This document shows, piece by piece, positions 48,017 through 63,574 of a stretch of 64,000 bases of DNA. The stretch's first letter is position 1. Each line of letters starts with the position of its first letter. This DNA is from Cyanobacteria bacterium FACHB-502 (lineage in GTDB: Bacteria; Cyanobacteriota; Cyanobacteriia; Elainellales; Elainellaceae): NCBI GenBank assembly GCA_014695325.1, contig JACJNZ010000039.1, forward strand, positions 1,178,001 through 1,242,000, in the 5' to 3' direction. Under the pieces are notes generated by a model, which was not told the DNA's origin, did not search any database, and saw only the letters and a program-made list of their open reading frames with translations. The translations under genes were made by a program, and so were the position numbers.

Positions 48017-48089
48017 GCTGGTGTAGCTCAGTTGGTAGAGCAGCTGATTTGTAATCAGCCGGTCGCAGGTTCGAGTCCCGTCACCAGCT
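48017..48089 (+). tRNA. trnT-TGU: tRNA-Thr (anticodon TGT)
   Basis: 73 bases. The acceptor arm GCTGGTG pairs with CACCAGC. The D arm has AGCTCAGTTGGTAGAGC, the anticodon stem GCTGA/TCAGC encloses loop TTTGTAA, and the T arm has GGTTCGAGTCC. It lacks an encoded CCA. It stands directly before a recombinase gene and is the probable integration site of the island. Confidence 0.96.
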
Positions 48090-48286
48090 TTTATTTAAAA
48101 CAAGCATTCTCCTTGATATATCAAGGTTTCAGGCATCCTCTGCTGAGCGATGCCATTTTTATGTTGGGTATTTTTAGGGGTGATTAGAGCTGTTTAGAGC
48201 CAAGATTGAGATAAGGATTGAGATAAAAATTGGGGTATGGTGGGTACGCTAGTACTAGAAATCTTGCCCAACTCATCTCCAACGCC

Positions 48287-49483
48287 ATGTATTCTCCCAA
48301 GTCCCATAAAAAAGCAAGGACAGGTAGTGTTCAGATCAGGAGTAGCAACAATCGGCTCCAGCTAGTTTTTAGCTTTTGCGGCAAACGGCATTTCGTATCC
48401 ACTGGCTTGGGAGATAGTCCCTTTAACCGTAAGCAGGCGCAAGACAAGGCGTTAGAGGTTGAGCGGGATATTGCGTATGGTGAGTTTGACCCCAATAATC
48501 TTGACAAGTATAAAGCTCTGGCAGCTCTAACCACTGTTGATCCGACTCCTACCAATTCCAACGAAGGCTTGGAATTACCTGAAATCTGGAATCGTTATAG
48601 GGAGGTGCGATCGCCCAAAAAGTCAGCATCCACGATCAGGATGTATGGATGGGTCGCAAATCACATAAGCAGGTGTCCTTATAAATTATTGACTGAAGCA
48701 CAAGCTATCTTTGATTGGCTGCATGCTAATGTACCTGCGGATTCCACCAAACGAGTTTTGACGCAGCTATCAGCAAGCTGTAAATGGGCAAAGAAGTCTG
48801 GTTTGATTGGTGGCAACCCGTTTCAAGGGATGGCATCAGAAATTAAGCTAGAAAAACCTGATGGCGAAGAGGAGGAAGAAATCAATCCTTTTACCAGGGA
48901 GGCGCGCGATCGTATCATTGCCGCCTTCAAAGCTGATCGCTACTACAAAAGGTATGCTCCACTCGTAGAATTTCTGTTTTTCACAGGATGCAGACCCTCC
49001 GAAGCTATTGCCCTTCAGTGGAAGCACATTGGTAGGCAAGAAATAACTTTCCGTAGAGTATTTATTTATAATGGTAAGAAATTTGTGATTCAGGAGGGGC
49101 TTAAAACTCAGAAGCTAAGGAAGTTTACGATTAATGCTCAACTTGCTGAGATCATCACATCAATTAAGCCGGAGAATTTTGACCCAGAAGCCTTAGTATT
49201 TCCTAGTCCTGAAGGAAAACATATTGATTGGCACAATTTCACTGCCCGTGCTTGGAAGAAGGTTTTAATGTCACTTTCCCAAGACATCATACTATCAGGT
49301 GGAGAGGTGCAGCCCGGTATTGAGTACCGTAATCCCTATCAAATGCGGCACACCTTCTGTAGTCTTTGCCGAGAGCAAGATATTCCGAGTATTCAGCTTG
49401 CTAAATGGGTTGGCAATTCGGCTGAAATGATCGATCGAGTTTATGCTAAGCCTGTGAGCAGAATTCCAGTCCCTATTCTGTAG
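48287..49483 (+). CDS. Tyrosine-type site-specific recombinase (integrase)
   Basis: 398 residues from ATG 48287 (MYSPKSHKKARTGSVQIRSS); an in-frame TTG at 48230 would add 19 residues. An N-terminal arm-binding domain (SVQIRSSNNRLQLVFSFCGK) precedes a SAM-like core-binding part. The catalytic domain shows the first Arg in FTGCRPSEAIALQW, the HxxR-box as MRHTFCSL, and a final VGNSAEMIDRVYA with the Tyr nucleophile. The gene lies immediately downstream of tRNA-Thr, as expected for an integrase at its own attachment site. It probably mobilised the Dnd island. Confidence 0.92.
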   Translation: MYSPKSHKKARTGSVQIRSSNNRLQLVFSFCGKRHFVSTGLGDSPFNRKQAQDKALEVERDIAYGEFDPNNLDKYKALAALTTVDPTPTNSNEGLELPEIWNRYREVRSPKKSASTIRMYGWVANHISRCPYKLLTEAQAIFDWLHANVPADSTKRVLTQLSASCKWAKKSGLIGGNPFQGMASEIKLEKPDGEEEEEINPFTREARDRIIAAFKADRYYKRYAPLVEFLFFTGCRPSEAIALQWKHIGRQEITFRRVFIYNGKKFVIQEGLKTQKLRKFTINAQLAEIITSIKPENFDPEALVFPSPEGKHIDWHNFTARAWKKVLMSLSQDIILSGGEVQPGIEYRNPYQMRHTFCSLCREQDIPSIQLAKWVGNSAEMIDRVYAKPVSRIPVPIL

Positions 49484-49633: not shown

Positions 49634-49960
49634 ATGAAGAAGGTTTATAACAAGCTAGTGCGCGATCGCATCCCCGAAATCATTCAGGCAGCGGGGCGAG
49701 AGTATGCCATAGAAACAATGGAGGAGGAAGAATTCCATCAGGCTCTGCGGGCAAAGTTGGTGGAAGAAGCGCAAGAGGCAGCAGCGGCTACTGACACGGA
49801 TTTGGTAACAGAACTGGCTGATTTGTACGAGGTCATAGATACTCTCATGGCGGCTTCTGGAATTGACCGAAAAACCATTTTAACGGAGCAAAAACGCAGA
49901 CGACTTGAGCGGGGTGGGTTCAGCCGTCGTATTCGGTTGCTCTGGAGTGGGGCAGACTAG
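49634..49960 (+). CDS. MazG-like nucleoside triphosphate pyrophosphohydrolase
   Basis: 108 residues. The motif KLVEEAQEAAAATDTDLVTE with LADLYEVID gives EExxE and ExxD metal sites of the all-alpha NTP-PPase family. It would hydrolyse NTPs to NMP and pyrophosphate. The N-terminal YNKLVRDRIPEII is typical of phosphoribosyl-ATP-pyrophosphatase-like members. It is the first gene of the restriction arm, 26 bp before the helicase gene. Nucleotide depletion or house-cleaning roles in defence are possible (inference). Confidence 0.85.
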   Translation: MKKVYNKLVRDRIPEIIQAAGREYAIETMEEEEFHQALRAKLVEEAQEAAAATDTDLVTELADLYEVIDTLMAASGIDRKTILTEQKRRRLERGGFSRRIRLLWSGAD

Positions 49961-49986: not shown

Positions 49987-52101
49987 TTGAGTCTGAAGGA
50001 TCTCGAATTACGCAACCAGTACCGTAGTGATCGCCATAATCTGCTGGAGGGCTTCTACATCCCCTGCTTGGAGCGATCGCTCACCTATGATCGAGCGGTT
50101 GGCTTCTTCTCCAGTACCTCACTAGCAGCGGCAGCGAAAGGTGTTTCGGCACTGATTCGAGTGGGTGGTAGGATGCGGTTAATTGCCTCGCCCCATCTAT
50201 CTCAGGACGATGCGGACGCTATTGCTCAAGGACTCAAGCAGCGAGAGGAAGTCGTCGAAGCAGCTCTAGTACGGGAACTAGAGCAGTTAGAGCAACTCGT
50301 AAATGACAGGCTGGGCTACCTGGCGTGGCTTTTGAGCAGGGAACTGCTGGAGATTAAGCTAGCAATACATCAGAACCCTTACCAGCCGGGCATTTACCAT
50401 GAGAAGTTGGGCATTTTTAGGGATTCCGATGACCAGATAGTTGTCTTTACAGGATCAGCCAATGAGAGTGCCAGTGGGTTGATCGCCAACTTTGAATGTA
50501 TTGACGTGTTTCGCTCATGGAGATTGGGTGATGACGAGCGCATTGTCGAGAAGATTGATGACTTCCAACGACTTTGGCAAAATCAAACTCCAACCCTGGA
50601 AATTCTGGATTTTCCAGAGGCAGCGCGTCGATCACTGCTGCGTCTGTGCCCAGCGCAATTTCCGATGATGGAGGGGGCAGAGTTTAGAAACCGCGAATCT
50701 CAGGGGGATTATTCTATTTCTGCTGCACAATCTTATGTTCCATCACTTTATCCGGTCACTCCATCCTGGCTGAATTTGCGTCCCTATCAGCAGCAGGCGA
50801 TCTCTAACTGGTTTGTGAATCAGGGGCGCGGCACCCTAAAGATGGCGACGGGTAGCGGTAAGACGATTACGGCACTGGCGATCACAGCGGAACTCTACCA
50901 GAAAATCCAGCTTCAGGCTTTGCTAGTGGTGTGCCCCTACCGACATCTGGTAAAGCAGTGGGCAAGGGAGTGCCAGAAGTTTGGATTAGCGCCTGTACTG
51001 GCGTTTGAGAATGTTCGAGCCTGGCAGGGGTTGCTATCGACCCAACTATATAATGTGCGGTCGGGGCACCAACCCTTTCTATGTGTCATTACAACCAACG
51101 CGACTTTGATGGGGCAGGGACTGCAATCACAGCTCCCCTTCTTTCCCAAAAAGACGCTGATTGTCGGAGATGAAGCGCACAATCTGGGCGCACAAAGGTT
51201 AGAAGCCAGCCTGCCGCGCAACATCGGACTGCGGTTGGCGCTATCCGCAACGCCAGAGCGGTATTTCGATGATCGCGGCACTCAAGCACTATTCAACTAT
51301 TTCGGTCAGGTGCTGGAGCCGGAGTTCACTCTGAAGGATGCGATTCAGCAGGGTGCTCTAGTCCACTATCTCTACTATCCCGTCCTCGTAGAGCTGACTG
51401 AACCAGAGATTGAGGTCTATGCCGAACTGACTAGCAAGATCGGACGGGCGATCGCCATTGGCGGCGACGAAGATAACGACAATCTCACGGCACTCCTGAT
51501 ACAGCGGGCGCGACTGGTTGGAGCAGCCGCAAACAAGCTGGAGGCTCTCAGAGAGATTATGCGATCGCGGCTGGATACCAGCCATACCCTGTTCTACTGC
51601 GGTGATGGTTCAGTTGAGGATGACCTGAGTGAGGAGAGCCAGCGCCAACTGGAGGCTGTAGCTCGGATTTTGGCTACAGAAATGGGGTATGGAGTTGCAA
51701 CTTACACAGCCCAAACACCGTTGGAGGAGAGGGAAGACCTGCGGCGTGAATTTGAACTGGGGGAACTGCCGGGACTGGTGGCAATTCGCTGTCTAGATGA
51801 GGGGGTTGATATTCCAGCAATTCAAACAGCGGTGATTTTGGCGAGCAGCGGCAATCCCCGACAGTTTGTGCAGCGACGGGGACGAATTCTCCGTCCTCAC
51901 CCGAATAAGCAACGAGCAACCCTGTTTGACATGATTGTGTTACCGCCTGACTTGGAGCGGGAAACCTTAGAAATAGAGCGCAATCTTCTCCGTAAGGAGT
52001 TGCAGCGTTTTGCCGAGTTTGCTGACCTGGCAGACAATGCGGGTGAAGCAAGGGTGAAGCTATTGGCGTTGCAGGATCGCTATGGCTTACTAGATCTATA
52101 G
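49987..52101 (+). CDS. PLD/DEAD-box helicase, Dnd-type restriction enzyme
   Basis: 704 residues from TTG 49987, preceded by AGGAG about nine bases upstream. Residues about 15-200 form a phospholipase D-like nuclease domain with HEKLGIFRD and GSANES. The helicase follows: Walker A MATGSGKTITAL, DEAH box VGDEAHNLG, LSATPERY, and motif VI QRRGRILRP. Family members clustered with dnd genes are annotated as DNA phosphorothioation system restriction enzymes, which act on DNA lacking the sulfur mark. It is followed by the small protein and the DndD-like ATPase. Confidence 0.85.
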   Translation: MSLKDLELRNQYRSDRHNLLEGFYIPCLERSLTYDRAVGFFSSTSLAAAAKGVSALIRVGGRMRLIASPHLSQDDADAIAQGLKQREEVVEAALVRELEQLEQLVNDRLGYLAWLLSRELLEIKLAIHQNPYQPGIYHEKLGIFRDSDDQIVVFTGSANESASGLIANFECIDVFRSWRLGDDERIVEKIDDFQRLWQNQTPTLEILDFPEAARRSLLRLCPAQFPMMEGAEFRNRESQGDYSISAAQSYVPSLYPVTPSWLNLRPYQQQAISNWFVNQGRGTLKMATGSGKTITALAITAELYQKIQLQALLVVCPYRHLVKQWARECQKFGLAPVLAFENVRAWQGLLSTQLYNVRSGHQPFLCVITTNATLMGQGLQSQLPFFPKKTLIVGDEAHNLGAQRLEASLPRNIGLRLALSATPERYFDDRGTQALFNYFGQVLEPEFTLKDAIQQGALVHYLYYPVLVELTEPEIEVYAELTSKIGRAIAIGGDEDNDNLTALLIQRARLVGAAANKLEALREIMRSRLDTSHTLFYCGDGSVEDDLSEESQRQLEAVARILATEMGYGVATYTAQTPLEEREDLRREFELGELPGLVAIRCLDEGVDIPAIQTAVILASSGNPRQFVQRRGRILRPHPNKQRATLFDMIVLPPDLERETLEIERNLLRKELQRFAEFADLADNAGEARVKLLALQDRYGLLDL

Positions 52102-52120
52102 GGATTCAGTGTTAGCAGCC

Positions 52121-52294
52121 ATGACCAAAGAGTTGAATATGAGCGAGGTGCAGGAGCCAATTACAACTGCTCCTCCGGAAGTACGGAGGATCATCGAGCG
52201 GGTGTTGAAGACAGAGCGGGACAAGCTTTACATGAAAAACCCTCGTCATATCAATGACGACATCCTGACCATCATCAAAGAAGAGGTGCCATGA
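52121..52294 (+). CDS. Small protein associated with DNA modification system
   Basis: 57 residues from ATG 52121; ATG 52139 (MSEVQEPITTAPPEVRRIIE) is the alternative. The sequence ends KNPRHINDDILTIIKEEVP. Its stop overlaps the ATG of the DndD-like ATPase (ATGA), so the two are coupled and probably act together. It resembles small proteins annotated next to DNA modification systems. No enzymatic motif. Confidence 0.65.
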   Translation: MTKELNMSEVQEPITTAPPEVRRIIERVLKTERDKLYMKNPRHINDDILTIIKEEVP

Positions 52295-54363
52295 AGCTGC
52301 TGTCGCTGCGACTCCGCAACTTTCGGCAGTTTTATGGGCAGACCCCGGAAATTGTACTGGCAGGGGGAGACCGTCGCAAAATTACGGTCATTCATGGGAA
52401 TAACGGAGCCGGAAAGACAGGACTACTGAATGCCTTCACCTGGGTGCTGTACGAGAAGTTTACGGCTGCCTTTGCTGCTGAGGATCAGCTCGTCAACAAG
52501 CGGGCGATCGCTGAGGCAGAGATCGGAGGCATGGTCGAGTGCTGGGCTGAGGTGGTGTTTGAGCATGGCGGAACTCAGTACCAGGCAAAGCGGGTTTGCC
52601 GTGCCTACAAGCAGAAAGATGGGGTAGAGCAGGGCAAGAGTGAGTTACGCCTACTCGTAAAAAATGAGACGGGGCGGTGGCTCCCGACCAGCTATCAGCC
52701 GGAAGATGTGATTGGTCGGATTCTGCCAGAGAGCTTGCACCGCTACTTCTTCTTTGACGGAGAGCGGATCGAACAGATTGTCCGCTCCAATAAGAAGGCG
52801 GAGATTGCTGAGGCGACCAAGATTTTGTTGGGTGTAGAGGTCTTGAACCGATCGGTCAAACACCTGGGGGAAGCCCGAAAATCGCTGGAGAAGGAATTGG
52901 GGCAGATCGGCGACCCGGAAACCCAGAAGCTCCTGAAGCAAAAGGAGAAGTTGGAGCAGGAGTGCGATCGCCTTCGAGGGCGGCAGGAGGAGATTGAGAA
53001 GGAATTAGGCTTTCAAGATGAGATCAAACAGACGACCAGTCAGCGCCTGCGGGAACTAGCGGGGATGGAGCAGTTGCAGCAGCGCCGCGATGATTTGGAA
53101 GCGCAGGCAAAGCTGACCCGTGAAAAACTGAAGCAGAGCCGGGCTAACCTGCAGCAGGCGGTTTCTTCAAGGGGCTACATGGTTTTGCTAGCAGATGCAA
53201 CTGCCCAGTTTCGGTCATTGGTGGATGGGCTTCGGCAGCGGGGAGAATTACCCGCCGATATCAAGCAGCAGTTTGTTCAAGACTTGCTGACACGGAACCG
53301 CTGTATTTGTGGCACTCCCTTAAAAGCCGGATCAGAACCCCATCAACACGTCAAAGCTTATTTAGATAAGGCAGGTTTGGCGGATGTTGAGGAAACCGTA
53401 ATTCGGATGGGGGCACAGGTGGATGCGATCGACCGTCAAGTGCCAGAGTTTTGGCAGGAGGTCGATCAGGAGCAAGCCAACATCAATCAATTTAAGATGT
53501 CGCTTTCTCACTTAGAGGAAGCACTCGACATCATTCGGGAGAAGCTGAGACAAAGCCCTAGTGAGGACATCCGCAAGCTCCAGAGCCGTATGGATGAGGT
53601 GGAGCAAAAGATTCGGGAACTGACGCTGGAGCAGGGAGCGAACCAGCAGCGAATCAAGGGTTGTGAGACCGAGATGGAGGGGTTAGCACGGCAGATTGAG
53701 AAGCACCGCATGAGTGAGAACCGCCAGGAGCAGGTGCAGCGAAGAATCACGGCAACTGAGGATGCGATCGCCCGCCTTAAGAAAGTCCAGGAAGGCTTGG
53801 GACAACTCTTTCGCCTACAGCTCGAAAAACGAATCCAGGAGATCTTCAGCCAGATCTCGTTTACGCCCTACGTACCCAAGCTAAACGAGAACTATGAATT
53901 AATGCTGGAAGATACAATGGCGGGACAGACCACTTCGGTTCCATCCTCGACGGGCGAGAACCAGATTTTGAGTCTGTCGTTCATTGGCGCAATTATTGAT
54001 CGTATCCGGGAGTGGAGCAAGGGCAAATCTGGTGTACTGATGCCTGAGAGCAGCACGTTTCCGATCGTGATGGACTCTCCCTTTGGCAGTCTGGATGAGA
54101 TCTACCGGCGACAGGTTGCAAGGGCAATTCCAGTGTTGGCGAATCAATTGGTAGTCCTGGTGACTAAAACTCAGTGGCGAGGAGAGGTTGCCGAGGAGAT
54201 GGAGGACTTTGTGGGACACCAGTACGTCCTGACCTACAATTCCCCCAAATCCGATTGTCAAGTAGATGAAATCAAACTTAACGGGATCGTACACCCACTG
54301 GTTCAACAAAGCCCTAATGAGTATGAATACACAGAGATTCTTGAGGTGAACCACACCATATAA
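52291..54363 (+). CDS. DndD-like SMC/Rad50-type ATPase of the restriction arm
   Basis: 690 residues. Walker A is HGNNGAGKTGLLNAF (residues about 35-49). Long coiled coils (about 195-300 and 385-505) flank a CICG zinc-hook-like motif near 338. The C-terminal half has the ABC signature region SSTGENQILSLSF and Walker B FPIVMDSPFGSLDE. It is a distinct paralogue of the dndD at 61227, with the same overall design. It is coupled to the preceding small gene and likely links ATP hydrolysis to DNA tethering or scanning. Confidence 0.83.
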   Translation: MKLLSLRLRNFRQFYGQTPEIVLAGGDRRKITVIHGNNGAGKTGLLNAFTWVLYEKFTAAFAAEDQLVNKRAIAEAEIGGMVECWAEVVFEHGGTQYQAKRVCRAYKQKDGVEQGKSELRLLVKNETGRWLPTSYQPEDVIGRILPESLHRYFFFDGERIEQIVRSNKKAEIAEATKILLGVEVLNRSVKHLGEARKSLEKELGQIGDPETQKLLKQKEKLEQECDRLRGRQEEIEKELGFQDEIKQTTSQRLRELAGMEQLQQRRDDLEAQAKLTREKLKQSRANLQQAVSSRGYMVLLADATAQFRSLVDGLRQRGELPADIKQQFVQDLLTRNRCICGTPLKAGSEPHQHVKAYLDKAGLADVEETVIRMGAQVDAIDRQVPEFWQEVDQEQANINQFKMSLSHLEEALDIIREKLRQSPSEDIRKLQSRMDEVEQKIRELTLEQGANQQRIKGCETEMEGLARQIEKHRMSENRQEQVQRRITATEDAIARLKKVQEGLGQLFRLQLEKRIQEIFSQISFTPYVPKLNENYELMLEDTMAGQTTSVPSSTGENQILSLSFIGAIIDRIREWSKGKSGVLMPESSTFPIVMDSPFGSLDEIYRRQVARAIPVLANQLVVLVTKTQWRGEVAEEMEDFVGHQYVLTYNSPKSDCQVDEIKLNGIVHPLVQQSPNEYEYTEILEVNHTI

Positions 54364-54405: not shown

Positions 54406-54882
54406 ATGGCTGAAAACACCAGGATTAAAGTTGCGAAGGAGAAGGCTTACCTTGTCCAGTCTCTAACGGCTTCTGAGACGACAACCGGACCTTTTGAGAC
54501 CTATGCCGATGTCTTGGCGTTCGCCGCCACTCTAGGAGTGAAGCACAGGAGGCGAGTGCCTCTGGTAGGTGAAATCTCAAGAAGAGATCCCTCCCCGATT
54601 CATCGTGAAACCTTCAGTGCCAAGGGGTACGACATGGTGATGAATCTGATCGCGATTTCTGACAGTGGAGAGCCTAAAACCCTAGCTTCTAATGAAGTCT
54701 CCTCAGCAGAGCGATTGCAGGCTTTTGAGGAGTACGCTAACGGGGGACTAGAAATCCTTGAAGAGCGGCTGAAAGGTACTGTGAATCACCTTGAGCAAAT
54801 TTTACTTCTGCTGGAGGTAGAGGGTAGAAGCTCTCATCAAGGTGGAGATGAGTTTGATCTAAGCGCCTTCTTGCCAGTTTAA
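54406..54882 (+). CDS. Dnd system-associated protein 4-like
   Basis: 158 residues. The pattern PFETYADVLAFAATLGVKHR, GYDMVMNLIAISDSGEPKTL and LQAFEEYANGGLEILEERLK resembles the family annotated as Dnd system-associated protein 4. It is soluble, with no catalytic motif. It lies 42 bp after the DndD-like ATPase and 12 bp before the GIY-YIG gene. Confidence 0.7.
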   Translation: MAENTRIKVAKEKAYLVQSLTASETTTGPFETYADVLAFAATLGVKHRRRVPLVGEISRRDPSPIHRETFSAKGYDMVMNLIAISDSGEPKTLASNEVSSAERLQAFEEYANGGLEILEERLKGTVNHLEQILLLLEVEGRSSHQGGDEFDLSAFLPV

Positions 54883-54894
54883 TGAGAACCGAGA

Positions 54895-55716
54895 GTGCCA
54901 TATAGAATCAACGCTAACAGAGAAAATTCACCCCCGCTATTGGTTGAACTTGTGCCTGAACCCACTCGCCCCTTTGAAGATGTTGAACGTTACTATCAAG
55001 TTTTCTCCTTGGAAACGGTATCTCAAGCTCCGAGAGCAACAGGGCTTTACGCCTGGTATGCAGGGTTAGATGCCGGCTTAAAGGATTGGGAGTTGGAGGT
55101 GATTGATGGGGTTGACGTTGGTACAGAGCGATTGAGGTCTCTTTTGAAACGTCATACTGACCGATATTGTGTCCAGGAGCTAGAAACTACTGCTCTAGGA
55201 GCTTTTTCTCAAACATGGGTGGGACAGCTCCAGGATCAAACCGCCAATACTCTGCGAAGTGTGTTGGCTGAACCAAACGGTATACAAGAACAGGAGAGTT
55301 ATGACCAGAAGCGCGCACCAAAGCTTCAATCAACGCTTGAGTCGCCTGATGCACGCCGACTGATGGTAAAGGCACTGGAAATTGCTATGCCGGTACTGAG
55401 TTCGCCCATATACGTGGGCGTCGCTGATTGCCTTCAAACTCGTCTAGCGCAGCATGTCCGTGAAATTAACAAACTGGCAAGTACTGTCAACAATGATCCA
55501 AGCACTCGCCAACGATTACGAGAAGTCAAGAAGACCAATTTTGCAGTTCGAGCAATTGCGGCTGGCTTTTCTCCTGGTAATCTTCAGGTTTGGACTTGTA
55601 ATCTTGATCTACTGGTGGAAGATCTAGGCAGTAAGAGCCAGGATGCTCGTACAGTGGCTGAGGCAGTTGAGTGGGTTTTGAATCGTTGGCATCGTCCATA
55701 TCTGGGGAGGCGTTGA
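54895..55716 (+). CDS. GIY-YIG nuclease-fold protein with a large insertion
   Basis: 273 residues from GTG 54895. The first GIY motif is GLY (50-52, ATGLYAWYAG). The YIG motif is YVG (173-175, PIYVGVADCL). Arg-183 and His-187 (QTRLAQHV) and a Glu in AEAVEWVLNRWHRPYLG (about 256-259) complete the catalytic pattern. About 115 residues separate GIY from YIG, where most family members have 10-15. It is probably a DNA-cutting or DNA-binding partner of the Dnd restriction arm. It stands 6 bp before the DGQHR gene. Confidence 0.7.
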   Translation: MPYRINANRENSPPLLVELVPEPTRPFEDVERYYQVFSLETVSQAPRATGLYAWYAGLDAGLKDWELEVIDGVDVGTERLRSLLKRHTDRYCVQELETTALGAFSQTWVGQLQDQTANTLRSVLAEPNGIQEQESYDQKRAPKLQSTLESPDARRLMVKALEIAMPVLSSPIYVGVADCLQTRLAQHVREINKLASTVNNDPSTRQRLREVKKTNFAVRAIAAGFSPGNLQVWTCNLDLLVEDLGSKSQDARTVAEAVEWVLNRWHRPYLGRR

Positions 55717-55721
55717 GAGCT

Positions 55722-57971
55722 ATGTTTGGCAGTGGCTCAAGAATTGGATACCAACATACCGTTGAGGGCACGTGGGGGCAGTTCATTACCCCTGCTGGCG
55801 AGGTTCACTTTCTATTGACTAAAGCCCGGCTAGGTCAAGGTGGAATCGATAATGAACGACGGCTAACCTCACAACTTCGCCCTGTCCGTGAGGTTCTGGA
55901 TTCAGAGAAATTGAACTTCAACCAATTGCTGCAACGAGATTTGGACGATCACCGGGTTGCAACACAGTTGATTCCTTACCTGCTGGAGCCAGAGAAAACT
56001 GGTCCCTCGTTTTTCCCACCAATTATGACGGTGCTGCTTCCTTTCTCTTCTGAACGTCCGGTCGACTTTTTTCCAGCAGTTGATTTCTCCGACATCAATG
56101 AAGATGAGCAATTGAGAGGCGTGTTTTGGAAGGAGGAACGAGCAGCGAGTGCATATCGAATTCGCCGTATGGCTTATCAGCAGGGAAACCTGCATGAAAT
56201 CAAGCTTGGACAAGTTTCCTGGAATGATGAAGAGGCGAAACTGGTAGTTTTGGACGGTCAACATCGCGCAATGGCATTGATTGCGATCGACAGAACTCTG
56301 AATGGAACCTGGGATCAAAATAGTGGCACGAGGTTCCGCCATTTCTACGAACATCGTATTCAAAGCATTTTGGACAACGCTAAACAGCGTGATCAACAGA
56401 TTGACCTCAGTCAAATTGAAATTCCTGTCACTGTTTGTTGGTTTCCTGGGGGTAGTGAAGCAGCCCGCAATCCGCATGGAGCAGCAAGAAAGCTGTTTGT
56501 GGATGTCAATAAAGAGGCGCGTCAACCTAGCGAGGCACGCCTGATTCTGCTATCAGATGCTGAATTAATCAACATCTTTACAAGAGCGATGCTGAATCGA
56601 TTGCGTGAAGATAATCCTCCGTTGCCGCTTTACGCAATCGAGTATGACAATCCGGATGATGACATCACTCAACCTGTGCGGTGGAGCGCAATGGCAAATT
56701 TGAGCTTGATCAAACGAGCCATTCAGTTTACGGCTTTCTGCCCGCCGAAGTATCGGGAGAACATGGATCAGCGCTTTGGGGGTCGCCTATCCGAGGATGA
56801 GATGGATGCTCGAATGCGGAAGGAATTAGCACTGAATTCTGTTTTCCCCTCAATTATTGAAGAAGAAAATATAGATCGAGATTCTATAGGTAATCGCAAG
56901 TTTCCAGAGTCGGGACTTGATGCGCTACGAGACCAGTTCATGAAGGGGTGGGGAACGGCAATCCTTTATCTTCTCGGAAATTTACTACCTTACAAGGCTC
57001 ACGCATTGGCGTTGCAGAAGCTCAAGGAGACTTGGCTCACAGATGACGCTATCTCTTCACTTGCTTGTGATGCTATTTTTGTGGGTGTAGGGATGTACTG
57101 GACGTTGCGAGAGTCCAATGACTACTGGCGCAAGGAAGTGGAACAGTCACGGAGAGAGCGCCGTACTGCCCCTCCTAAACCTGATATCGTCAAAGCTTGG
57201 GACAGCATTGAGAGCAAAAGCAGAGAATTTCAAGCTTATCGTGCAAATGCTTATCTAGGTAAAGCAACAGATGAAGCTATCAAGCAGGCTAATACTGTGT
57301 TTGACATGATGAACACTCATGCGTGCCAGCTTGGAGTTTGTTTAATGCTGACTGCTTTGGCAGATGCTTCAAGCGTCAAGATGGAAGCATTAGTAGATTT
57401 AGCGGTCAAGGTGACTGAGGCATTGAATGCAGCGTTAAGCAGCAGCATTACTCAGAATCGCAATCGGTTGCTAATTTTTGATCGCAAACAGTCAAATGAC
57501 AGCAAACAGTCATACCCCCTCAATCGCATTCCCCGACTTGAACCATCACTATCCATATATTTCCGATATTTCTGGTTAGAGCTGCTATGTACAAATGAAG
57601 CAAGAGCACATTTGGATGATCGCTTAATTTCAATTGCTGAATCATTTCGTGATGTTGCAAGGAGGGCTTATTTCGATTTCTTAGTAGAAGAACAAATGAA
57701 GGCACTCAAGCGATCGAATCCAACGTGGGAGAAAGAGAAGCTCCTGAAGGAAGCTCAAGACATTGAATCAAAAGCATTGCGAAAAGCTATGAAGCATTGG
57801 GCTTTGGTAGATTTGGAGGAATTTGACCGTTGGTTGGAGACAAAACCTGTAAAAAAGGTGAACCAAAGCGCTGAGCTTGAAGATGAAGGGGTTGTGGAAT
57901 TAGAAGTGAATGATGATGCCTTAATTCACTCTGTTGATGATTTAATCGATTCCCTACAGGATGATGACTAA
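55722..57971 (+). CDS. Large DGQHR-domain protein (DndB-related)
   Basis: 749 residues from ATG 55722 (MFGSGSRIGYQHTVEGTWGQ); the frame is open to 55671 but overlaps the GIY-YIG gene. The DGQHR motif is at about residue 179 (VVLDGQHRAMALIAIDRT). The C-terminal 350 residues are helical and unlike ordinary DndB, ending in an acidic tail. DndB proteins (about 360-380 residues) regulate phosphorothioation. This is a second, enlarged DGQHR protein, likely a sensor or regulator in the restriction arm. Confidence 0.78.
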   Translation: MFGSGSRIGYQHTVEGTWGQFITPAGEVHFLLTKARLGQGGIDNERRLTSQLRPVREVLDSEKLNFNQLLQRDLDDHRVATQLIPYLLEPEKTGPSFFPPIMTVLLPFSSERPVDFFPAVDFSDINEDEQLRGVFWKEERAASAYRIRRMAYQQGNLHEIKLGQVSWNDEEAKLVVLDGQHRAMALIAIDRTLNGTWDQNSGTRFRHFYEHRIQSILDNAKQRDQQIDLSQIEIPVTVCWFPGGSEAARNPHGAARKLFVDVNKEARQPSEARLILLSDAELINIFTRAMLNRLREDNPPLPLYAIEYDNPDDDITQPVRWSAMANLSLIKRAIQFTAFCPPKYRENMDQRFGGRLSEDEMDARMRKELALNSVFPSIIEEENIDRDSIGNRKFPESGLDALRDQFMKGWGTAILYLLGNLLPYKAHALALQKLKETWLTDDAISSLACDAIFVGVGMYWTLRESNDYWRKEVEQSRRERRTAPPKPDIVKAWDSIESKSREFQAYRANAYLGKATDEAIKQANTVFDMMNTHACQLGVCLMLTALADASSVKMEALVDLAVKVTEALNAALSSSITQNRNRLLIFDRKQSNDSKQSYPLNRIPRLEPSLSIYFRYFWLELLCTNEARAHLDDRLISIAESFRDVARRAYFDFLVEEQMKALKRSNPTWEKEKLLKEAQDIESKALRKAMKHWALVDLEEFDRWLETKPVKKVNQSAELEDEGVVELEVNDDALIHSVDDLIDSLQDDD

Positions 57972-58116: not shown

Positions 58117-58163
58117 ACGTCAATTTAGTGATAGATTACGTGGGAAGGTCTTGGACGGGTTCT

Positions 58164-59240
58164 ATGGCTCTCCCATTCGAGTACGTTTTTCCAGCTATCA
58201 GAGGGATTCAGGCAGGGCGCGAGTATTACGTCTCGATGTGCCCAGTGCGGCTGATCCCCAAGATCTTCTCGTTTGATGATGAAGAGATTCCCCCTGAAAT
58301 GCGAGCGCAACGGGTCTTGAATCGGAGTCGAGTACCTGAGATGGCTCGCTACATTGTGGGTAATCCAACAGACTACGTTTTTTCAGCAATCACTGTCTCC
58401 ATCAATGCTGATATTGCTTTTGAACCCATTGGTTCAGAAGACATTGGTAAGTTAACCGTCCCAATGGATGCTCGGTTTGTAATAAATGACGGACAGCACC
58501 GCCGTGCTGCCTTTGAGCAAGCGTTGAAGGAAAATCCAGACCTGGGGGATGAGACGATCGCTGTCGTCTTCTTTCTAGATATTGGATTGAAGCGATCGCA
58601 GCAGATGTTCACAGACCTGAACCGTTATGCGGTTCATCCCGATCCCTCACTGAACATTCTGTACGACCAGCGCGATCGCAAATCTATTCTGTCCAAATCG
58701 GTAGTCAAAGAGGTCAAAATTTTTGACAGACTCACCGATATGGAGCGCAGCAACTTGCCAGTCCGCTCCAGTAAGCTCTTCACGCTTAGCAGCATTTACG
58801 GTGCCACTCAAGCACTTCTGACTAATCACAAGAACGAGGAGATAGAGAAGCAGATTGAAATTAGTGTCCGTTTCTGGAGAGCGGTCAGCAGCAATATTCC
58901 AGACTGGCAGCAAGTATTTGATAAGAAAGTTAGTCCTGGGGAGATCCGTCGAGAATACATTCACAGCCATGCGGTCACACTAGCGGGGATTGGTGGTGCG
59001 GGTGCAGTCTTGCTGGCTACTTACCCGGACAAGTGGGAGACCCAGTTAAAAGCCTTACGCAAAATAGATTGGTCACGCTCCAATCCTGACTGGGAGGGGC
59101 GCGTCATGTTTGGGGGGAAGCTATCCAAATCGAGAACTTGTGTAGCATTCATGACCGCTTATTTGAAAAAGGCAATGAAACTGCCGATGACTACGGAAGA
59201 AGAACGGCTAGAGAGAGCCTATGCTCTAGCGGGGAGGTAG
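58164..59240 (+). CDS. dndB: DNA sulfur modification protein DndB
   Basis: 358 residues from ATG 58164 (MALPFEYVFPAIRGIQAGRE); the frame starts earlier at 58128. The DGQHR motif is at about residue 109 (VINDGQHRRAAFEQAL). FLDIGLKRSQQMFTDLNRYA and NWxRSNPDWEGRVM-type sequence (IDWSRSNPDWEGRVMFGGKL) are family hallmarks. In characterised systems DndB limits modification and can repress the dnd operon. It leads the dnd operon behind a palindromic site. Confidence 0.9.
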   Translation: MALPFEYVFPAIRGIQAGREYYVSMCPVRLIPKIFSFDDEEIPPEMRAQRVLNRSRVPEMARYIVGNPTDYVFSAITVSINADIAFEPIGSEDIGKLTVPMDARFVINDGQHRRAAFEQALKENPDLGDETIAVVFFLDIGLKRSQQMFTDLNRYAVHPDPSLNILYDQRDRKSILSKSVVKEVKIFDRLTDMERSNLPVRSSKLFTLSSIYGATQALLTNHKNEEIEKQIEISVRFWRAVSSNIPDWQQVFDKKVSPGEIRREYIHSHAVTLAGIGGAGAVLLATYPDKWETQLKALRKIDWSRSNPDWEGRVMFGGKLSKSRTCVAFMTAYLKKAMKLPMTTEEERLERAYALAGR

Positions 59241-59242
59241 CC

Positions 59243-59620
59243 ATGCCAACGTTTGAGTTTCAAATTGTTTCTGACACCGCAAAGGAAGCCCAGCAGTTCA
59301 TGACAGCAGTCCAGGCTAACGAGGTGAATATTGAGGAATGGGAGTATGACGTGAGCACTCCAACCGAGAAGCAGGAGTGCTATGGATTTGGAGTCACTTA
59401 TTGTTCGCTTAAACAACTGCAACGGTTTGCCGATGAGATGGGTGTTGTTCTTGCCTACGCTAAGAACCAGGAAGTCGTTGAGCAAGAAACTGATCAGCTA
59501 GTACAGCAAGTTATGCGGGCACGAGAGATTGTCGAAGCCATGAATCTAACCTCAGAAAGGGAGATGCTGCACCAGATGTTAGAAACCTATAAACGTTTGG
59601 AGCATGGGGAAACTGAGTAG
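59243..59620 (+). CDS. Unknown 125-residue protein between dndB and dndC
   Basis: Starts MPTFEFQIVSDTAKEAQQFM after GGGGAGG. It is acidic, with an N-terminal alpha/beta part and a C-terminal helix (LVQQVMRAREIVEAMNLTSE). Two bp separate it from dndB and 47 bp from dndC. It does not match DndE, which is encoded downstream of dndD. I know no name for it, but its place inside the dnd operon suggests a role in the system. Confidence 0.65.
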   Translation: MPTFEFQIVSDTAKEAQQFMTAVQANEVNIEEWEYDVSTPTEKQECYGFGVTYCSLKQLQRFADEMGVVLAYAKNQEVVEQETDQLVQQVMRAREIVEAMNLTSEREMLHQMLETYKRLEHGETE

Positions 59621-59667
59621 TCTGAATATTTTGAGGCATTAGCTGGGTTTTATTGAGGGTGAGTGTA

Positions 59668-61230
59668 ATGACTGAAACGGTTGAATTAAAAAACTTCCAA
59701 CGATCGGTTCCTGAATTTGTCGAGGCTTTGAAAGCTCTTACGACTGAAATTCAAGAACTATACTGCCAGGATCAATTGCCCTGGATTGTTGGCTACTCCG
59801 GTGGCAAGGATTCGACAGCAGTGCTTCAGTTAGTGTGGAATGCGATCGCCGCTCTCCCAGTCGAAAAACGTACCAAAACCATTCATGTCATCACCACAGA
59901 CACAATGGTTGAAAATCCAGTTGTGTCTGCATGGGTCAGCAAATCTTTAGAGCAGGTGGGCAAGTCTGCTCAAGAAAAAGGCATCCCCATTGAACCGATT
60001 CTGCTAAAACCTGCTGTAAAAGACACCTTCTGGGTCAATTTAATTGGGAAGGGCTATCCAGCCCCAAGGCAAGGCTTTCGCTGGTGTACCGAGCGTCTCA
60101 AGATCAAACCATCCGATAACTACATCCGGGAGAAAATTCGGGAAAGCGGGGAAGTCATTTTAGTTCTAGGAACCCGAAAAGCTGAAAGCGCATCGCGGGC
60201 TGCCTTAATGGAAAAACACCGCAACTGGCGTGTCTTCTCGCACCTCAACTACAATCCCAGTCGCCCAAACTCCTTGATTTACACACCAATTGAAGACTGG
60301 CGCACAGATGAGGTTTGGCTCTACTTGATGCAATGGCAAAACCCTTGGGGCAATAACAACAAAGACTTGTTTGCTATGTACCGGGGCGCAACAGCAGATA
60401 ATGAATGCCCACTGGTTGTGGATACGTCTACGCCTAGCTGCGGTAGTTCACGATTTGGCTGCTGGGTCTGCACGTTAGTTAGTGCAGATAAATCAATGGA
60501 GGCAATGATCCAGAACGATGAGGAGAAGGAGTGGATGCAACCGCTTCTGGATCTACGGAACGAGTTGGATGTGGAGGATGATCTCGATCGCCGTGACTTC
60601 CGGCGGCGACAGGGGCAGATCCAGCTTTATGAGCGTGATGTGGACGGGCTAGATGCCAAAGAAATTGTCAATATTCCGGGTCCCTATACCAAACAATGGC
60701 GAGAAGAATGGTTGCGACGAGTGCTTCAAGCGCAAACAATTGCTCGTCAAAATGCACCTACTGAAATGCAGGGTATCGAACTGATTGCGATCGAAGAACT
60801 GAGTGAAATTCGCCGCATTTGGCTAGAGGAGTTTCATGAGTTTGATGATGCTTTGCCCAGAATTTACTCTGAAGTCACAGAACAAGACTTTATCGATCCC
60901 CGCCCTAATGCTGGCAGTACCCACCTTGGTTTGGACGAGTGGAGCATTTTAGAGGAAATTTGCGATGACCCAATGCACTTTGAACTGATGACTCGGCTCC
61001 TCAGCACCGAGCGTAGGTTTCAAACAATGTCGCGGCGAGTCGGCATTATTGACGCACTTGAAAAGCACTTTGAGACTAGCTCTCGTCCCAAGGAAGAGGC
61101 GATCGATAACGCCCACCTGAATTGGAATATCAAAAAAGCCGCTAAAGCTGGAGATGTAGAAACCGTTAAACAGCTAACTGATAAGCCAGCACCTTCTTGG
61201 GCAGACCTGAAATTTAAGGGACGGGGATGA
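59668..61230 (+). CDS. dndC: DNA sulfur modification protein DndC
   Basis: 520 residues from ATG 59668. PAPS-reductase-like. The PP-loop is SGGKDS (residues 44-49, VGYSGGKDSTAVLQLV). Cysteines in RWCTERLK and the cluster TPSCGSSRFGCWVCT fit the 4Fe-4S centre of DndC. It has ATP pyrophosphatase activity and helps insert sulfur into the DNA backbone. The C-terminal part is longer and helical. Its stop overlaps the dndD start by 4 bp (ATGA). Confidence 0.95.
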   Translation: MTETVELKNFQRSVPEFVEALKALTTEIQELYCQDQLPWIVGYSGGKDSTAVLQLVWNAIAALPVEKRTKTIHVITTDTMVENPVVSAWVSKSLEQVGKSAQEKGIPIEPILLKPAVKDTFWVNLIGKGYPAPRQGFRWCTERLKIKPSDNYIREKIRESGEVILVLGTRKAESASRAALMEKHRNWRVFSHLNYNPSRPNSLIYTPIEDWRTDEVWLYLMQWQNPWGNNNKDLFAMYRGATADNECPLVVDTSTPSCGSSRFGCWVCTLVSADKSMEAMIQNDEEKEWMQPLLDLRNELDVEDDLDRRDFRRRQGQIQLYERDVDGLDAKEIVNIPGPYTKQWREEWLRRVLQAQTIARQNAPTEMQGIELIAIEELSEIRRIWLEEFHEFDDALPRIYSEVTEQDFIDPRPNAGSTHLGLDEWSILEEICDDPMHFELMTRLLSTERRFQTMSRRVGIIDALEKHFETSSRPKEEAIDNAHLNWNIKKAAKAGDVETVKQLTDKPAPSWADLKFKGRG

Positions 61231-63188
61231 TTTTTCGAGAACTAGTATTAGAAAACTTCGGTCCTTATAAAGGACGACAGGTATTTAATCTTTGCCCTGG
61301 TCAAGACCAGCAAACCATCGTTCTATTCGGTGGTATGAACGGCGGCGGGAAAACGACGTTGATGGATGCCATTCGTCTGGCGCTCTATGGGCATCGTGCC
61401 CCCTGTTCAACTCGCGGTAGCCTCAGCTATCCTGAATTCCTCAAACAGTGTATTAATCGGCAGGCACAGGACTCTACGATAGAACTGAGTTTCGAACAAA
61501 CCCTGAATAATGAGGCACAGCCTACTGAGTTTAGGATCTACCGTACCTGGACTGAGCAGATTAGCGGTCGAGACATCCTGAGAGTTACGGTTAATGGTGA
61601 AATTGCGCCCGATCTGGCACAGAAATGGGATGAGCGCATTGAAGATTTACTGCCCTTGGGAATTTCCCGCTTGTTTCTGTTTGACGGTGAGCAGGTTGGT
61701 GAACTGGCTGATCGGGATACCTTGCCCCAATCTGTTACTGTTGCGATTCGATCGCTACTAGGACTTGAATTGCCCGATCGTCTCTCTGCCGACCTCGATG
61801 TGCTGACTACCCGTAAGCGTAAAGCCCTAGCAACCGCTCAGGAACAAGCACAGCTATTGGATCTTGAGCAACGCCTAGAATCCCAGGAGCAAGAACGCCG
61901 TTCTATCAAAAAGAAAATTGCTGCAATTCAACCAAAGCTGGACAAGGCAGAAGAGAAATTGCGGCAGGCGGAGGAACGGTTTCTGGCTGAGGGTGGCAAA
62001 ATTGCAGCAGAGCAATCCCAACAGGAGCAGCAATTACAACAGGCGAGGAACAAAGCTGATGACCATCGCGCCGCCTTGCGAGAGGTTGCAGCGGGAGTCT
62101 TGCCTCTGGCATTGATTCAGCCTTTGCTTGAAGAAGCTCAAGTTCAAGCCCAGCAGGAGATCTGGCAGCAACAGTTAGAGTCCGCTGGTGAGTTGTTAAA
62201 GGAACGGAACCAGGACTTGCTTCAGTTTGTTAAATCACTAGACTTAGAAACGAAACAACTTAAGCAAATTCGTTCGTTTCTTGCAAAACAAGAAAAGGAA
62301 GTCTCACAGGATATAGGGGAGACTTGGTTAGGTGCGGACGTAGACACCCTTCATCAACTAACGAACACATTGCAATATGCTCTGCCTCACCAGCGCCAAG
62401 TAGCGGCAGAGCATCTAAAGCAGCTTCAAACCTACCAGGATGAGATTGAGACTATTGAACGCTACCTTGCAACTGCCGCTTCTCCGGAGATGTACGACAA
62501 GTTAGTGCAGCAGGTGCGTCAGGAACAGGCAGAAGTCGTGAGCCTCAAAGCCGATCGCGAACACAGTCAACGGCTTCTTGAGCAAGCAGAACAAACCCTT
62601 GCTCGCACCAGGCAAGAACTAATGGATTATGGCAAGCTGGCGATCGACCGCAAAAATGATGAACATACCCTGGCGGCGATCGCTAAAGTCCAAGATACCC
62701 TCAAAGTGTTCAAGCAAAAGCTGAAACTCCGCAAACTCAATCAGCTTGAGACTCTAGTGACTGAGTGCTTCCTCTACTTACTGCACAAATCGAATTTGGT
62801 GCATCGGGTTCAAATCGACACCGAAACCTTCAGCCTCTCCCTGTTTGACTACGAAGGGCAACCTGTGCCCAAACATCGGCTATCTGCGGGTGAGAAGCAA
62901 CTATTGGCAATTTCCCTGTTGTGGGGATTAGCCCGTGCCTCTGGTCGGCAGTTACCTGTGGCGATTGATACTCCACTGGGTCGGCTTGATTCCTCTCACC
63001 GCAACAATCTAGTCGATCGGTACTTCCCACAAGCCAGCCATCAAGTGCTGCTCCTCTCGACGGATACCGAGATTGGTAAGACAGAGGTGAAGCGGTTGCG
63101 GGAGAATGGAGCGATCTCGCGTGAATACTTGCTTAAGTACGATCGCACTAAGCACCAAACACAAGTGAAACCTGGTTATTTCTGGTAA
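61227..63188 (+). CDS. dndD: DNA sulfur modification protein DndD
   Basis: 653 residues. SMC/Rad50-type ATPase with Walker A LFGGMNGGGKTTLMDAIRLAL (residues about 34-54), extensive coiled coils (about 205-270 and 395-480), and a C-terminal ABC signature HRLSAGEKQLLAISLLWGLA followed by Walker B PVAIDTPLGRLDS. It provides ATPase function for the modification complex. It is translationally coupled to dndC and followed by dndE after 5 bp. Confidence 0.95.
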   Translation: MIFRELVLENFGPYKGRQVFNLCPGQDQQTIVLFGGMNGGGKTTLMDAIRLALYGHRAPCSTRGSLSYPEFLKQCINRQAQDSTIELSFEQTLNNEAQPTEFRIYRTWTEQISGRDILRVTVNGEIAPDLAQKWDERIEDLLPLGISRLFLFDGEQVGELADRDTLPQSVTVAIRSLLGLELPDRLSADLDVLTTRKRKALATAQEQAQLLDLEQRLESQEQERRSIKKKIAAIQPKLDKAEEKLRQAEERFLAEGGKIAAEQSQQEQQLQQARNKADDHRAALREVAAGVLPLALIQPLLEEAQVQAQQEIWQQQLESAGELLKERNQDLLQFVKSLDLETKQLKQIRSFLAKQEKEVSQDIGETWLGADVDTLHQLTNTLQYALPHQRQVAAEHLKQLQTYQDEIETIERYLATAASPEMYDKLVQQVRQEQAEVVSLKADREHSQRLLEQAEQTLARTRQELMDYGKLAIDRKNDEHTLAAIAKVQDTLKVFKQKLKLRKLNQLETLVTECFLYLLHKSNLVHRVQIDTETFSLSLFDYEGQPVPKHRLSAGEKQLLAISLLWGLARASGRQLPVAIDTPLGRLDSSHRNNLVDRYFPQASHQVLLLSTDTEIGKTEVKRLRENGAISREYLLKYDRTKHQTQVKPGYFW

Positions 63189-63193
63189 AAACT

Positions 63194-63574
63194 ATGGAAC
63201 CCCCTGTCGATCGAGTCCGTGTTTCTCAGGCTGCTAAGGATCAGTTGGTTAAACTAAAGCGCAGAACTAAGATTGAGCAATGGAACGTTCTTTGCAGGTG
63301 GGCGTTTTGCTGTTCTCTTGTGGAATCCACTTCCCCTTCTCCTATTTCAATACCTAATGACAGTAACCTCGAAATGAGTTGGCAAGTCTTTGGAGGCGAA
63401 CTAGGAAATATACTAATACTAGCTTTAAGACAACGTTGCTATGATGATGGCTTACAAATAAATAAGCTGACTCTGGCAAGTCAGTTTCGGCTGCACCTTC
63501 ATAGAGGAATCGGGTACCTTGCTGCCGATTCCAAAGATAAAGCACTCGAAGATTTTCTCACAATACTGAGATAA
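63194..63574 (+). CDS. dndE: DNA sulfur modification protein DndE
   Basis: 126 residues. VRVSQAAKDQLVKLKRRTKI and EQWNVLCRWAFCCSLVEST match the DndE pattern (lysine-rich face, NxLCRxxFxxSL). DndE binds nicked DNA through basic residues. Five bp separate it from dndD. Length is normal. Confidence 0.88.
   Translation: MEPPVDRVRVSQAAKDQLVKLKRRTKIEQWNVLCRWAFCCSLVESTSPSPISIPNDSNLEMSWQVFGGELGNILILALRQRCYDDGLQINKLTLASQFRLHLHRGIGYLAADSKDKALEDFLTILR

Follow-up and report, generated by a model that had tools for sequence, protein, structure and literature searches.

A putative GIY-YIG nuclease with a large insert, paired with a DndB-like DGQHR protein beside Dnd and Ssp phosphorothioation genes

The window analysed here, a stretch of 64,000 nucleotides from Cyanobacteria bacterium FACHB-502, carries on its forward strand a cluster of genes linked to DNA phosphorothioation (PT), in the order pbeA, candidate pbeB, pbeC, candidate pbeD, the gene pair that is the subject of this report, dndB, an ORF, dndC, dndD and dndE. 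PbeA (49987–52101), which combines a PLD nuclease-like part with an SF2 helicase, matches TIGR04095 and the PADLOC PbeA model, and PbeC (52291–54363), a DndD/CxC-type ABC ATPase, matches PADLOC PbeC with an E value of 0. A 61-residue ORF (52109–52294), which overlaps the start of pbeC and for which no family match was found, is a candidate PbeB by position and size only. A TIGR04062 protein (DNA phosphorothioation-associated protein 4; 54406–54882), which has no PADLOC match, is a candidate PbeD by order and size; in H. jeotgali PbeB has 66 residues and PbeD 152. Beyond the pair lie canonical DndB (58128–59240; TIGR03233), DndC (59653–61230; TIGR03183), DndD (61227–63188; TIGR03185) and DndE (63194–63574; PF08870 and TIGR03184). 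The ORF in the dndB-dndC interval (59138–59620) matches no Pfam, NCBIfam or PADLOC model and has no phmmer relative among 85 other sequences.

A short way upstream of the Pbe/Dnd cluster a tRNA-Thr gene (48017–48089) is immediately followed by a tyrosine-recombinase-like gene (48230–49483), which hits XerC/XerD models at E values of about 1e-5, below the cut-off. Together they are possibly where an integrated island starts on the left. A search of the window and of the 7.6 kb from there to the contig end did not recover the tRNA-Thr 3' end a second time. A small PRA-PH (phosphoribosyl-ATP pyrophosphohydrolase-like) gene (49634–49960) adjoins pbeA.

The first gene of the pair (54895–55716, forward strand) encodes a GIY-YIG endonuclease-like protein of 273 residues with a GTG start. 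That start is uncertain, since the first 30 residues of the predicted model have low confidence (block means of 51, 58 and 64), and the true one may lie downstream of 54895. A first-pass annotation, made from the letters of the sequence, had described the product as a GIY-YIG protein with some 115 residues inserted between its two motifs, naming GLY at residues 50–52, YVG at residues 173–175 and the Arg, His and late Glu positions of the family. All of these were found where it had placed them: the GLY (GIY) motif is encoded at 55042–55050, the YVG (YIG) motif at 55411–55419, Arg183 to His187 of the helix after YIG at 55441–55455, and Glu259 of the last helix at 55669–55671. The insert lies between core strands 1 and 2, at about residues 57–172 (55063–55410), and consists by predicted secondary structure of helices and a beta hairpin at residues 96–112. 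Tyr52 and Tyr173 are separated by 120 residues.

No relative of this protein was found when the single window protein was compared with genome contigs in a first scan, a search of 98 related genomes recovered the window alone, and tblastn against phages gave no match. Two relatives were obtained by tblastn on plasmids, in Nonomuraea (31.5% identity, E 4e-28) and Asticcacaulis (25.3%, E 1e-4). A profile built from the first relatives was then run on 78 loci that had been retrieved with an alignment of the adjoining DGQHR protein as query, from the best 80 of 106 confirmed stretches. The nuclease gene was present in 52 of these 78 loci, in the window and in five of six plasmid loci. Fifty-nine loci with a nuclease match were available and 56 were counted, L001 being omitted as the window's own copy and L005 and L051 as interrupted genes. 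The Trichormus copy (L005:9276–9971) is interrupted by an in-frame stop, and in Mycobacterium parascrofulaceum (L051:7529–8355) the nuclease frames and the DGQHR gene are both broken.

The loci span several phyla, including Actinomycetota, Pseudomonadota, Cyanobacteriota, Poribacteria and Planctomycetes. Residues G50, Y52, W54, Y55, P171, Y173, G175, R183, H187, E259, P268 and G271 are the same in all 56 intact homologues, a count of sequences and not of independent events, and the spacing between the two tyrosine columns in these homologues ranges from 87 to 124 residues. The large insert that had been claimed for the window protein is thus real, and its explanation as an artefact of a frameshift or a mis-start was dropped, given that 56 homologues carry it. 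A distant group of four proteins from the window's phylum (L093–L096; 193–233 residues) has a similar insert, with 84–86 residues between the tyrosines.

By itself the window protein scores weakly: GIY-YIG was third in the Pfam list (E 0.2, below the cut-off), and NCBIfam, PADLOC, PHROGs and PDB sequences yielded nothing useful. It is therefore comparison at the level of the family that settles the GIY-YIG identity. In Pfam, PF01541 was matched by 36 of the 52 members at E values up to 1 (best 1.2e-4), and no family outside GIY-YIG matched more than five of the 52; DUF445 and HycH (E 0.03–0.07) were each found in a single member of the 52 and were rejected as chance. For profile comparison, 23 ordinary GIY-YIG domains were taken as a yardstick from genomes of the same class; L121 and L125 were dropped (frame not recovered; partial), which left 21. 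Compared with this set in hhalign, the nuclease family gave a local probability of 94.3% in full and 96.3% after removal of the insert columns, upon which the local alignment reaches back through the GIY motif. In global mode the figures were 65.8% for the full and 94.8% for the spliced profile. Controls gave 0.8% for the insert alone, 0.56% for the reversed profile and no more than 0.83% for 20 column shuffles. Because the local profile alignment ends before the glutamate helix, the assignment of Glu259 comes from conservation and from the model. The family profile had ten matches among PDB sequences at E values up to 1, none of them below 0.02; seven are GIY-YIG proteins (five UvrC entries, endonuclease II and I-TevI) and three are unrelated. 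UvrC ranks first (E 0.023), the corresponding motif blocks being its residues 8–19 and 27–46; the GIY and YIG parts of this match are in order and the GIY part scores 0.8 bits.

The AlphaFold2 model of the window protein (mean pLDDT 87.3, pTM 0.81) places a strand at residues 50–56, then the insert, a strand at 173–177, helices (of which that after YIG spans 180–200), a strand at 230–236 and a helix at 249–266. Foldseek found no significant match in the PDB for this model or for that of the DGQHR protein, and the structural evidence therefore comes from VIA-align together with the sequence profiles. In VIA-align the top rows are five UvrC GIY-YIG entries (Z 8.7–9.0, 86–87 residues, 2.4–2.7 Å), followed by three Eco29kI entries (Z 6.7–7.1, 92–94 residues, 2.0–2.1 Å). 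A plant Grx N-domain, which we take to have the GIY-YIG fold, is also among the matches with a Z of 6.9, and the chain that follows has a Z of 2.5. The matched ranges on the model run from residue 34/37 to residue 272/273 and span the insert, so that the GIY and YIG motifs meet in one site in the model. The first-pass annotation had proposed structure prediction and a profile search as the means of telling whether the motifs assemble or a different fold applies. In the predicted structure they do assemble, with a UvrC alignment over residues 37–273 at Z 9.0, and the profile search favours GIY-YIG; together with the Pfam family matches and the hhalign controls, these results bear out the identity.

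Both the fold and the Tyr, Tyr, Arg, His and Glu residues are common to the window protein, the UvrC N-domain (1yd5; Z 9.0, 86 residues, 2.7 Å) and the Type II enzyme R.Eco29kI (3mx4; Z 7.1, 94 residues, 2.0 Å). The topology had been called unusual, which was an overstatement, since the core order strand-strand-helices-strand-helix is kept and Eco29kI provides a precedent with smaller inserts. In the consulted part of its description the Eco29kI inserts are given as residues 56–71 and 82–99, between Tyr49 and Arg104 (PMC1952068). By that numbering the window insert is much larger, with 131 residues from Tyr52 to Arg183 compared with 55 from Tyr49 to Arg104 in Eco29kI.

The window family differs from UvrC and Eco29kI in the near-obligate presence of a DGQHR neighbour and in the replacement of the Asn of the P-x-x-N motif by Gly. 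The latter residue, Gly271, stands three positions after the invariant Pro268 in 56 of 56 sequences. The UvrC alignment ends at model residue 272/273 against UvrC residue 89/90, so that UvrC Asn88 would, if the alignment is ungapped, correspond to Gly271. P-x-F-N (PRFN or PKFN) is kept in three of the four distant members (L094–L096). Catalysis may be altered by the change from Asn to Gly271, and the change also speaks for a regulatory complex in which the GIY-YIG domain is catalytically dead and does no more than bind DNA. We regard such a complex as very improbable, because the other catalytic positions are invariant in 56 sequences from several phyla, which would not be expected of a dead enzyme. 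The Asn was treated here as typical of the GIY-YIG superfamily and not as defining it; Hpy188I is reportedly kept in the superfamily despite an unusual active site. The GIY-YIG protein is plausibly the nuclease of the locus.

The second gene of the pair (55722–57971, forward strand) begins 5 nt downstream of the first and encodes a DndB-like DGQHR protein of 749 residues, in which an N-terminal DGQHR (ParB-like) domain is followed by a helical C-terminal part of about 430 residues. The partner alignment consists of the window protein and 60 of the 75 eligible sequences (61 in all). PF14072 (DndB) was matched by all 61 at E values up to 0.1, GmrSD_N was also matched, weakly, by ten of the 61 (best E 0.0049), and PADLOC gave weak DndB matches in 22 of 61 and two single matches. 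The window partner lies below the TIGR03233 and PF14072 cut-offs, with its match confined to the N-domain; it does not match GmrSD_N and no HNH domain was found in it. Residues Q71-R72, D178GQHR182 and F259xxxN263 are invariant in 61 of 61 partners, and a QR pair, DGQHR and FxxxN are named, in the part of the source consulted, as common to DGQHR domains and GmrS (PMC4619093). In profile comparison the N-domain matched canonical DndB with a probability of 94.8% (15 shuffles gave at most 0.45%), whereas the C-terminal 430 residues gave 0.12%, that is, no match. The partner and DndB (TIGR03233/PF14072) thus have a homologous N-domain with the QR, DGQHR and FxxxN motifs in common. They differ in that the partner is twice the length, has Ssp as well as Dnd neighbours and is linked to a nuclease.

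For the partner model (mean pLDDT 88.7) the top three VIA-align matches are SspE chains (Z 5.3, 5.1 and 5.0; 151–154 residues, 3.8–3.9 Å), with residues of about 20–267 aligned on SspE residues of about 2–328; the first unrelated chain has a Z of 4.4, and BrxU is at rank 8 with a Z of 3.9. The model therefore suggests a modest structural likeness of the partner N-domain to the phosphorothioate-sensing NTPase domain of SspE. At the sequence level a profile comparison of the partner with three SspE-like sequences gave no significant match (2.3%), and the DGQHR-protein profile found nothing among PDB sequences at E values up to 1. According to the parts of the SspE studies consulted, a hydrophobic patch (Tyr30, Gln31) reads the PT, GTP is hydrolysed at D96GQQR100 and the HNH nickase is thereby licensed (PMC9646914, PMC13251355). 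When the sequences are aligned by motif, all 61 partners have Leu, Met or Ile at the position of the PT-reading Tyr of SspE (Y30/Y63), before the QR pair. The tyrosine is apparently not kept, and any reading of PT by the partner would hence differ. The window pair resembles SspE in coupling a DGQ[HQ]R domain with a nuclease within PT loci. SspE itself is a DUF262 DGQQR GTPase fused to an HNH nickase and a partner of SspABCD, whereas the pair consists of two polypeptides, its nuclease is of the GIY-YIG type, and the partner has a DndB-type and not a DUF262-type domain, a long helical C-terminus and apparently no PT-reading Tyr.

The coupling of the two genes is tight. In 52 of the 78 loci (best 80 of 106 stretches) the DGQHR gene is immediately preceded by a GIY-YIG gene, which is intact in 51 of the 52 and broken in one. 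In 57 measured pairs the DGQHR gene is downstream on the same strand at an intergenic gap of −31 to 22 nt (median 2 nt; 5 nt in the window), the start codons used being the candidates nearest the upstream stop, a choice that favours short gaps. Pairwise distances of nuclease and partner, taken as raw distances, correlate with r = 0.94 over 56 loci. In 29 loci with SspD the nuclease-partner value is 0.97 against 0.47 for nuclease and SspD, and in 17 loci with DndC it is 0.985 against 0.82. The nuclease and partner genes are inherited together to a greater extent than either is with the modification genes.

Since it was the DGQHR partner that led to the 78 loci, a figure of 52 of 78 cannot show whether the nuclease occurs alone, and a search with the nuclease profile in one phylum was used to look for lone nucleases. 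In this partner-independent test, which covered 386 genomes of the window's phylum, the GIY-YIG profile matched 12 at E values up to 1e-3; 11 of the matches were kept, seven close and four distant. The twelfth match, a frame of 57 residues with one internal stop (E 5.5e-4), was set aside. A DGQHR gene is next door in 11 of the 11 carriers, in diverged form in the four distant cases. The DGQHR profile, run on the same genomes at E values up to 1e-10, a threshold too strict for the diverged partners of G182, G377 and G381, gave 12 matches, ten of them close, and the nuclease accompanies seven of the ten. With a DGQHR gene beside every one of the 11 nucleases and a nuclease beside seven of ten DGQHR genes, the nuclease needs its partner more than the reverse.

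The DGQHR protein occurs without a GIY-YIG gene in 26 of the 78 loci (best 80 of 106 stretches), of which at least one (L034) is cut by a contig end, and thus has other roles or partners. The genes upstream of it in the 78 loci of that sample are GIY-YIG in 52, a GHKL-type ATPase in 17 and HNH in one. The GHKL-type genes belong to 17 of the 26 nuclease-free loci, all of them actinobacterial (L010, L011, L013, L014, L018–L020, L022, L026, L027, L029, L031, L035, L037, L043, L045 and L047), and were called by similarity to a Trichormus protein; L010 and that Trichormus protein were confirmed to carry HATPase_c_3. That this ATPase is a strict substitute for the nuclease is not claimed, since eight loci hold both. 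The HNH endonuclease gene (L076:3103–4449) comes from a MAG of Myxococcota and immediately precedes the DGQHR gene; this one example of an HNH gene in the nuclease's place fits a sensor with exchangeable effectors.

The neighbourhoods of the pair are those of sulfur modification. Of the 52 GIY-YIG loci (best 80 of 106 stretches), 27 carry Ssp genes, 19 carry Dnd genes and six carry neither, so that 46 of 52 hold Dnd or Ssp genes in the analysed stretch; neighbours were called by single-sequence phmmer, which makes absences of genes at the loci soft. Four of the six loci without PT genes nearby have dndC in the genome, and L009 and L085 gave no dndC match. The earlier description of a Dnd locus holds for the window, in which the pair lies beside Dnd genes, but not for the family, which is not Dnd-specific. 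In the partner-independent sample, dndC above the cut-off or DUF4007 (SspB) is present in 11 of 11 carrier genomes against 109 of 386 overall (hypergeometric P 6e-7, uncorrected for relatedness). Nine of the 11 carriers have a PT gene no more than about 10 kb from the pair (DUF4007 in six and dndC in three); G182 and G381 have none near the pair and carry it at another place in the genome. The pair is not claimed as a simple replacement of SspE in Ssp loci, an SspE-like ORF being in reach in three of 32; a DUF262 gene is annotated at the edge of L003/L004.

Association with modification genes could also mean that the pair assists modification itself, the GIY-YIG protein nicking the backbone for sulfur insertion or the pair tuning PT placement in the manner of canonical DndB. 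The DndB-like N-domain of the partner (94.8% probability) is in keeping with such a role, as is L127, in which a distant pair lies between a TIGR04062-type gene and dndC, the place expected of dndB. However, most genomes of the phylum with dndC or DUF4007 do without the pair (11 carriers among the 109, of 386), and the window has its own canonical dndB besides; we consider a helper of modification quite improbable.

A different role has been put forward for related genes. Rakesh, Aravind and Krishnan 2024 describe URI (GIY-YIG) nucleases at the edges of Dnd loci, which they propose to be suicide effectors, as given in the part of their text consulted (PMC10853773). For the present pair this would mean a suicide or back-up effector, in which the GIY-YIG DNase cuts indiscriminately, self DNA included, when PbeABCD or Dnd fails, and the DGQHR protein is an antitoxin-like restraint and not a PT sensor. 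The tight coupling of the genes would suit a toxin and its restraint, and the window already holds pbeA, pbeC and candidates for pbeB and pbeD. We nevertheless hold a suicide effector to be unlikely: 26 of 78 loci (best 80 of 106 stretches) contain the partner, a large protein of NTPase type, but no nuclease, and PT genes accompany the pair much more often than the background would predict. In addition, none of the three Pbe proteins searched was found in 39 of the 52 GIY-YIG loci (best 80 of 106 stretches), which argues against a mere back-up of Pbe. Neither protein of the pair matches the Pbe or DndFGH models of PADLOC, a weak test in the case of PbeB and PbeD, as the TIGR04062 protein of the window has no PADLOC match either. 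The weak PADLOC matches of the nuclease, to PDC-S14, UzuA, GajB and SAVED-HNH, occur in one to four of the 52 members each.

A nuclease that is nearly always beside a DGQHR gene in sulfur-marking systems points to the pair as probably an unstudied two-part defence against viruses. We lean, by a little more than an even chance, towards a two-gene PT-linked restriction effector with SspE-like action, the GIY-YIG nuclease being gated by the DGQHR NTPase. With the same slight preference, we see the pair as resembling SspE in its working and not as a member of the SspE family. In such an effector the first gene would supply a GIY-YIG endonuclease with an inserted accessory domain of about 110 residues. 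The DGQHR protein would bind DNA and NTP and respond to PT status, and by contacting the insert or the nuclease core it would keep the enzyme off or license it. Unmodified invading DNA would be nicked or cut and sulfur-marked host DNA spared. The first-pass annotation had offered the GIY-YIG protein as the possible reader of modification, a role that is better assigned to the adjoining DGQHR partner, which it had not mentioned.

Known PT-linked systems offer two modes for such a switch, since PT could turn the pair on, as with SspE, or off, as with DndI and SspFGH. DndI is described, in the text consulted, as cutting by default, with ATP hydrolysis freeing it from PT DNA (PMC11662687). A DndB-like protein has been reported to bind both ATP and GTP (PMC12704722). 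Since canonical DndB acts as a regulator, its DGQHR relative could have a regulatory role as well. PbeABCD, DndFGH, SspFGH and DndI are all like the pair in being encoded beside PT modification genes. A wider proposal is advanced more tentatively, at somewhat short of an even chance: the pair would be a mobile PT-sensing effector able to join either kind of phosphorothioation, double-stranded (Dnd) or single-stranded (Ssp). In this proposal the DGQHR protein would be a sensor shared by varied partners, and the pair would be one of the restriction partners that 'orphan' sspBCD and dnd clusters lack.

PT-linked restriction effectors and Dnd-linked GIY-YIG genes were known before; apparently new here are the insert family, its DGQHR pairing and its Ssp link. 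In the part of the text of Rakesh et al. 2024 consulted, neither the insert nor the DGQHR partner nor an association with Ssp is described, and their supplementary dataset may include some of the genes. No description of the insert family, the DGQHR pairing or the Ssp link was found in the open-access literature, supplements and preprints aside. A total of 2,211 of 2,678 sspBCD modules are reported, in the section of the survey consulted, to have no accompanying SspE or SspFGH (PMC8092258), and the nuclease and DGQHR pair is a concrete candidate restriction partner for some orphan Ssp clusters. If this is true, DndB-type domains would act as nuclease switches as well as repressors. About 1.8 kb past the end of the window, on the minus strand of the same contig (G000 contig C34:1243781–1244764), lies a second, distant match to the DndC model of 138 bits, below the cut-off.
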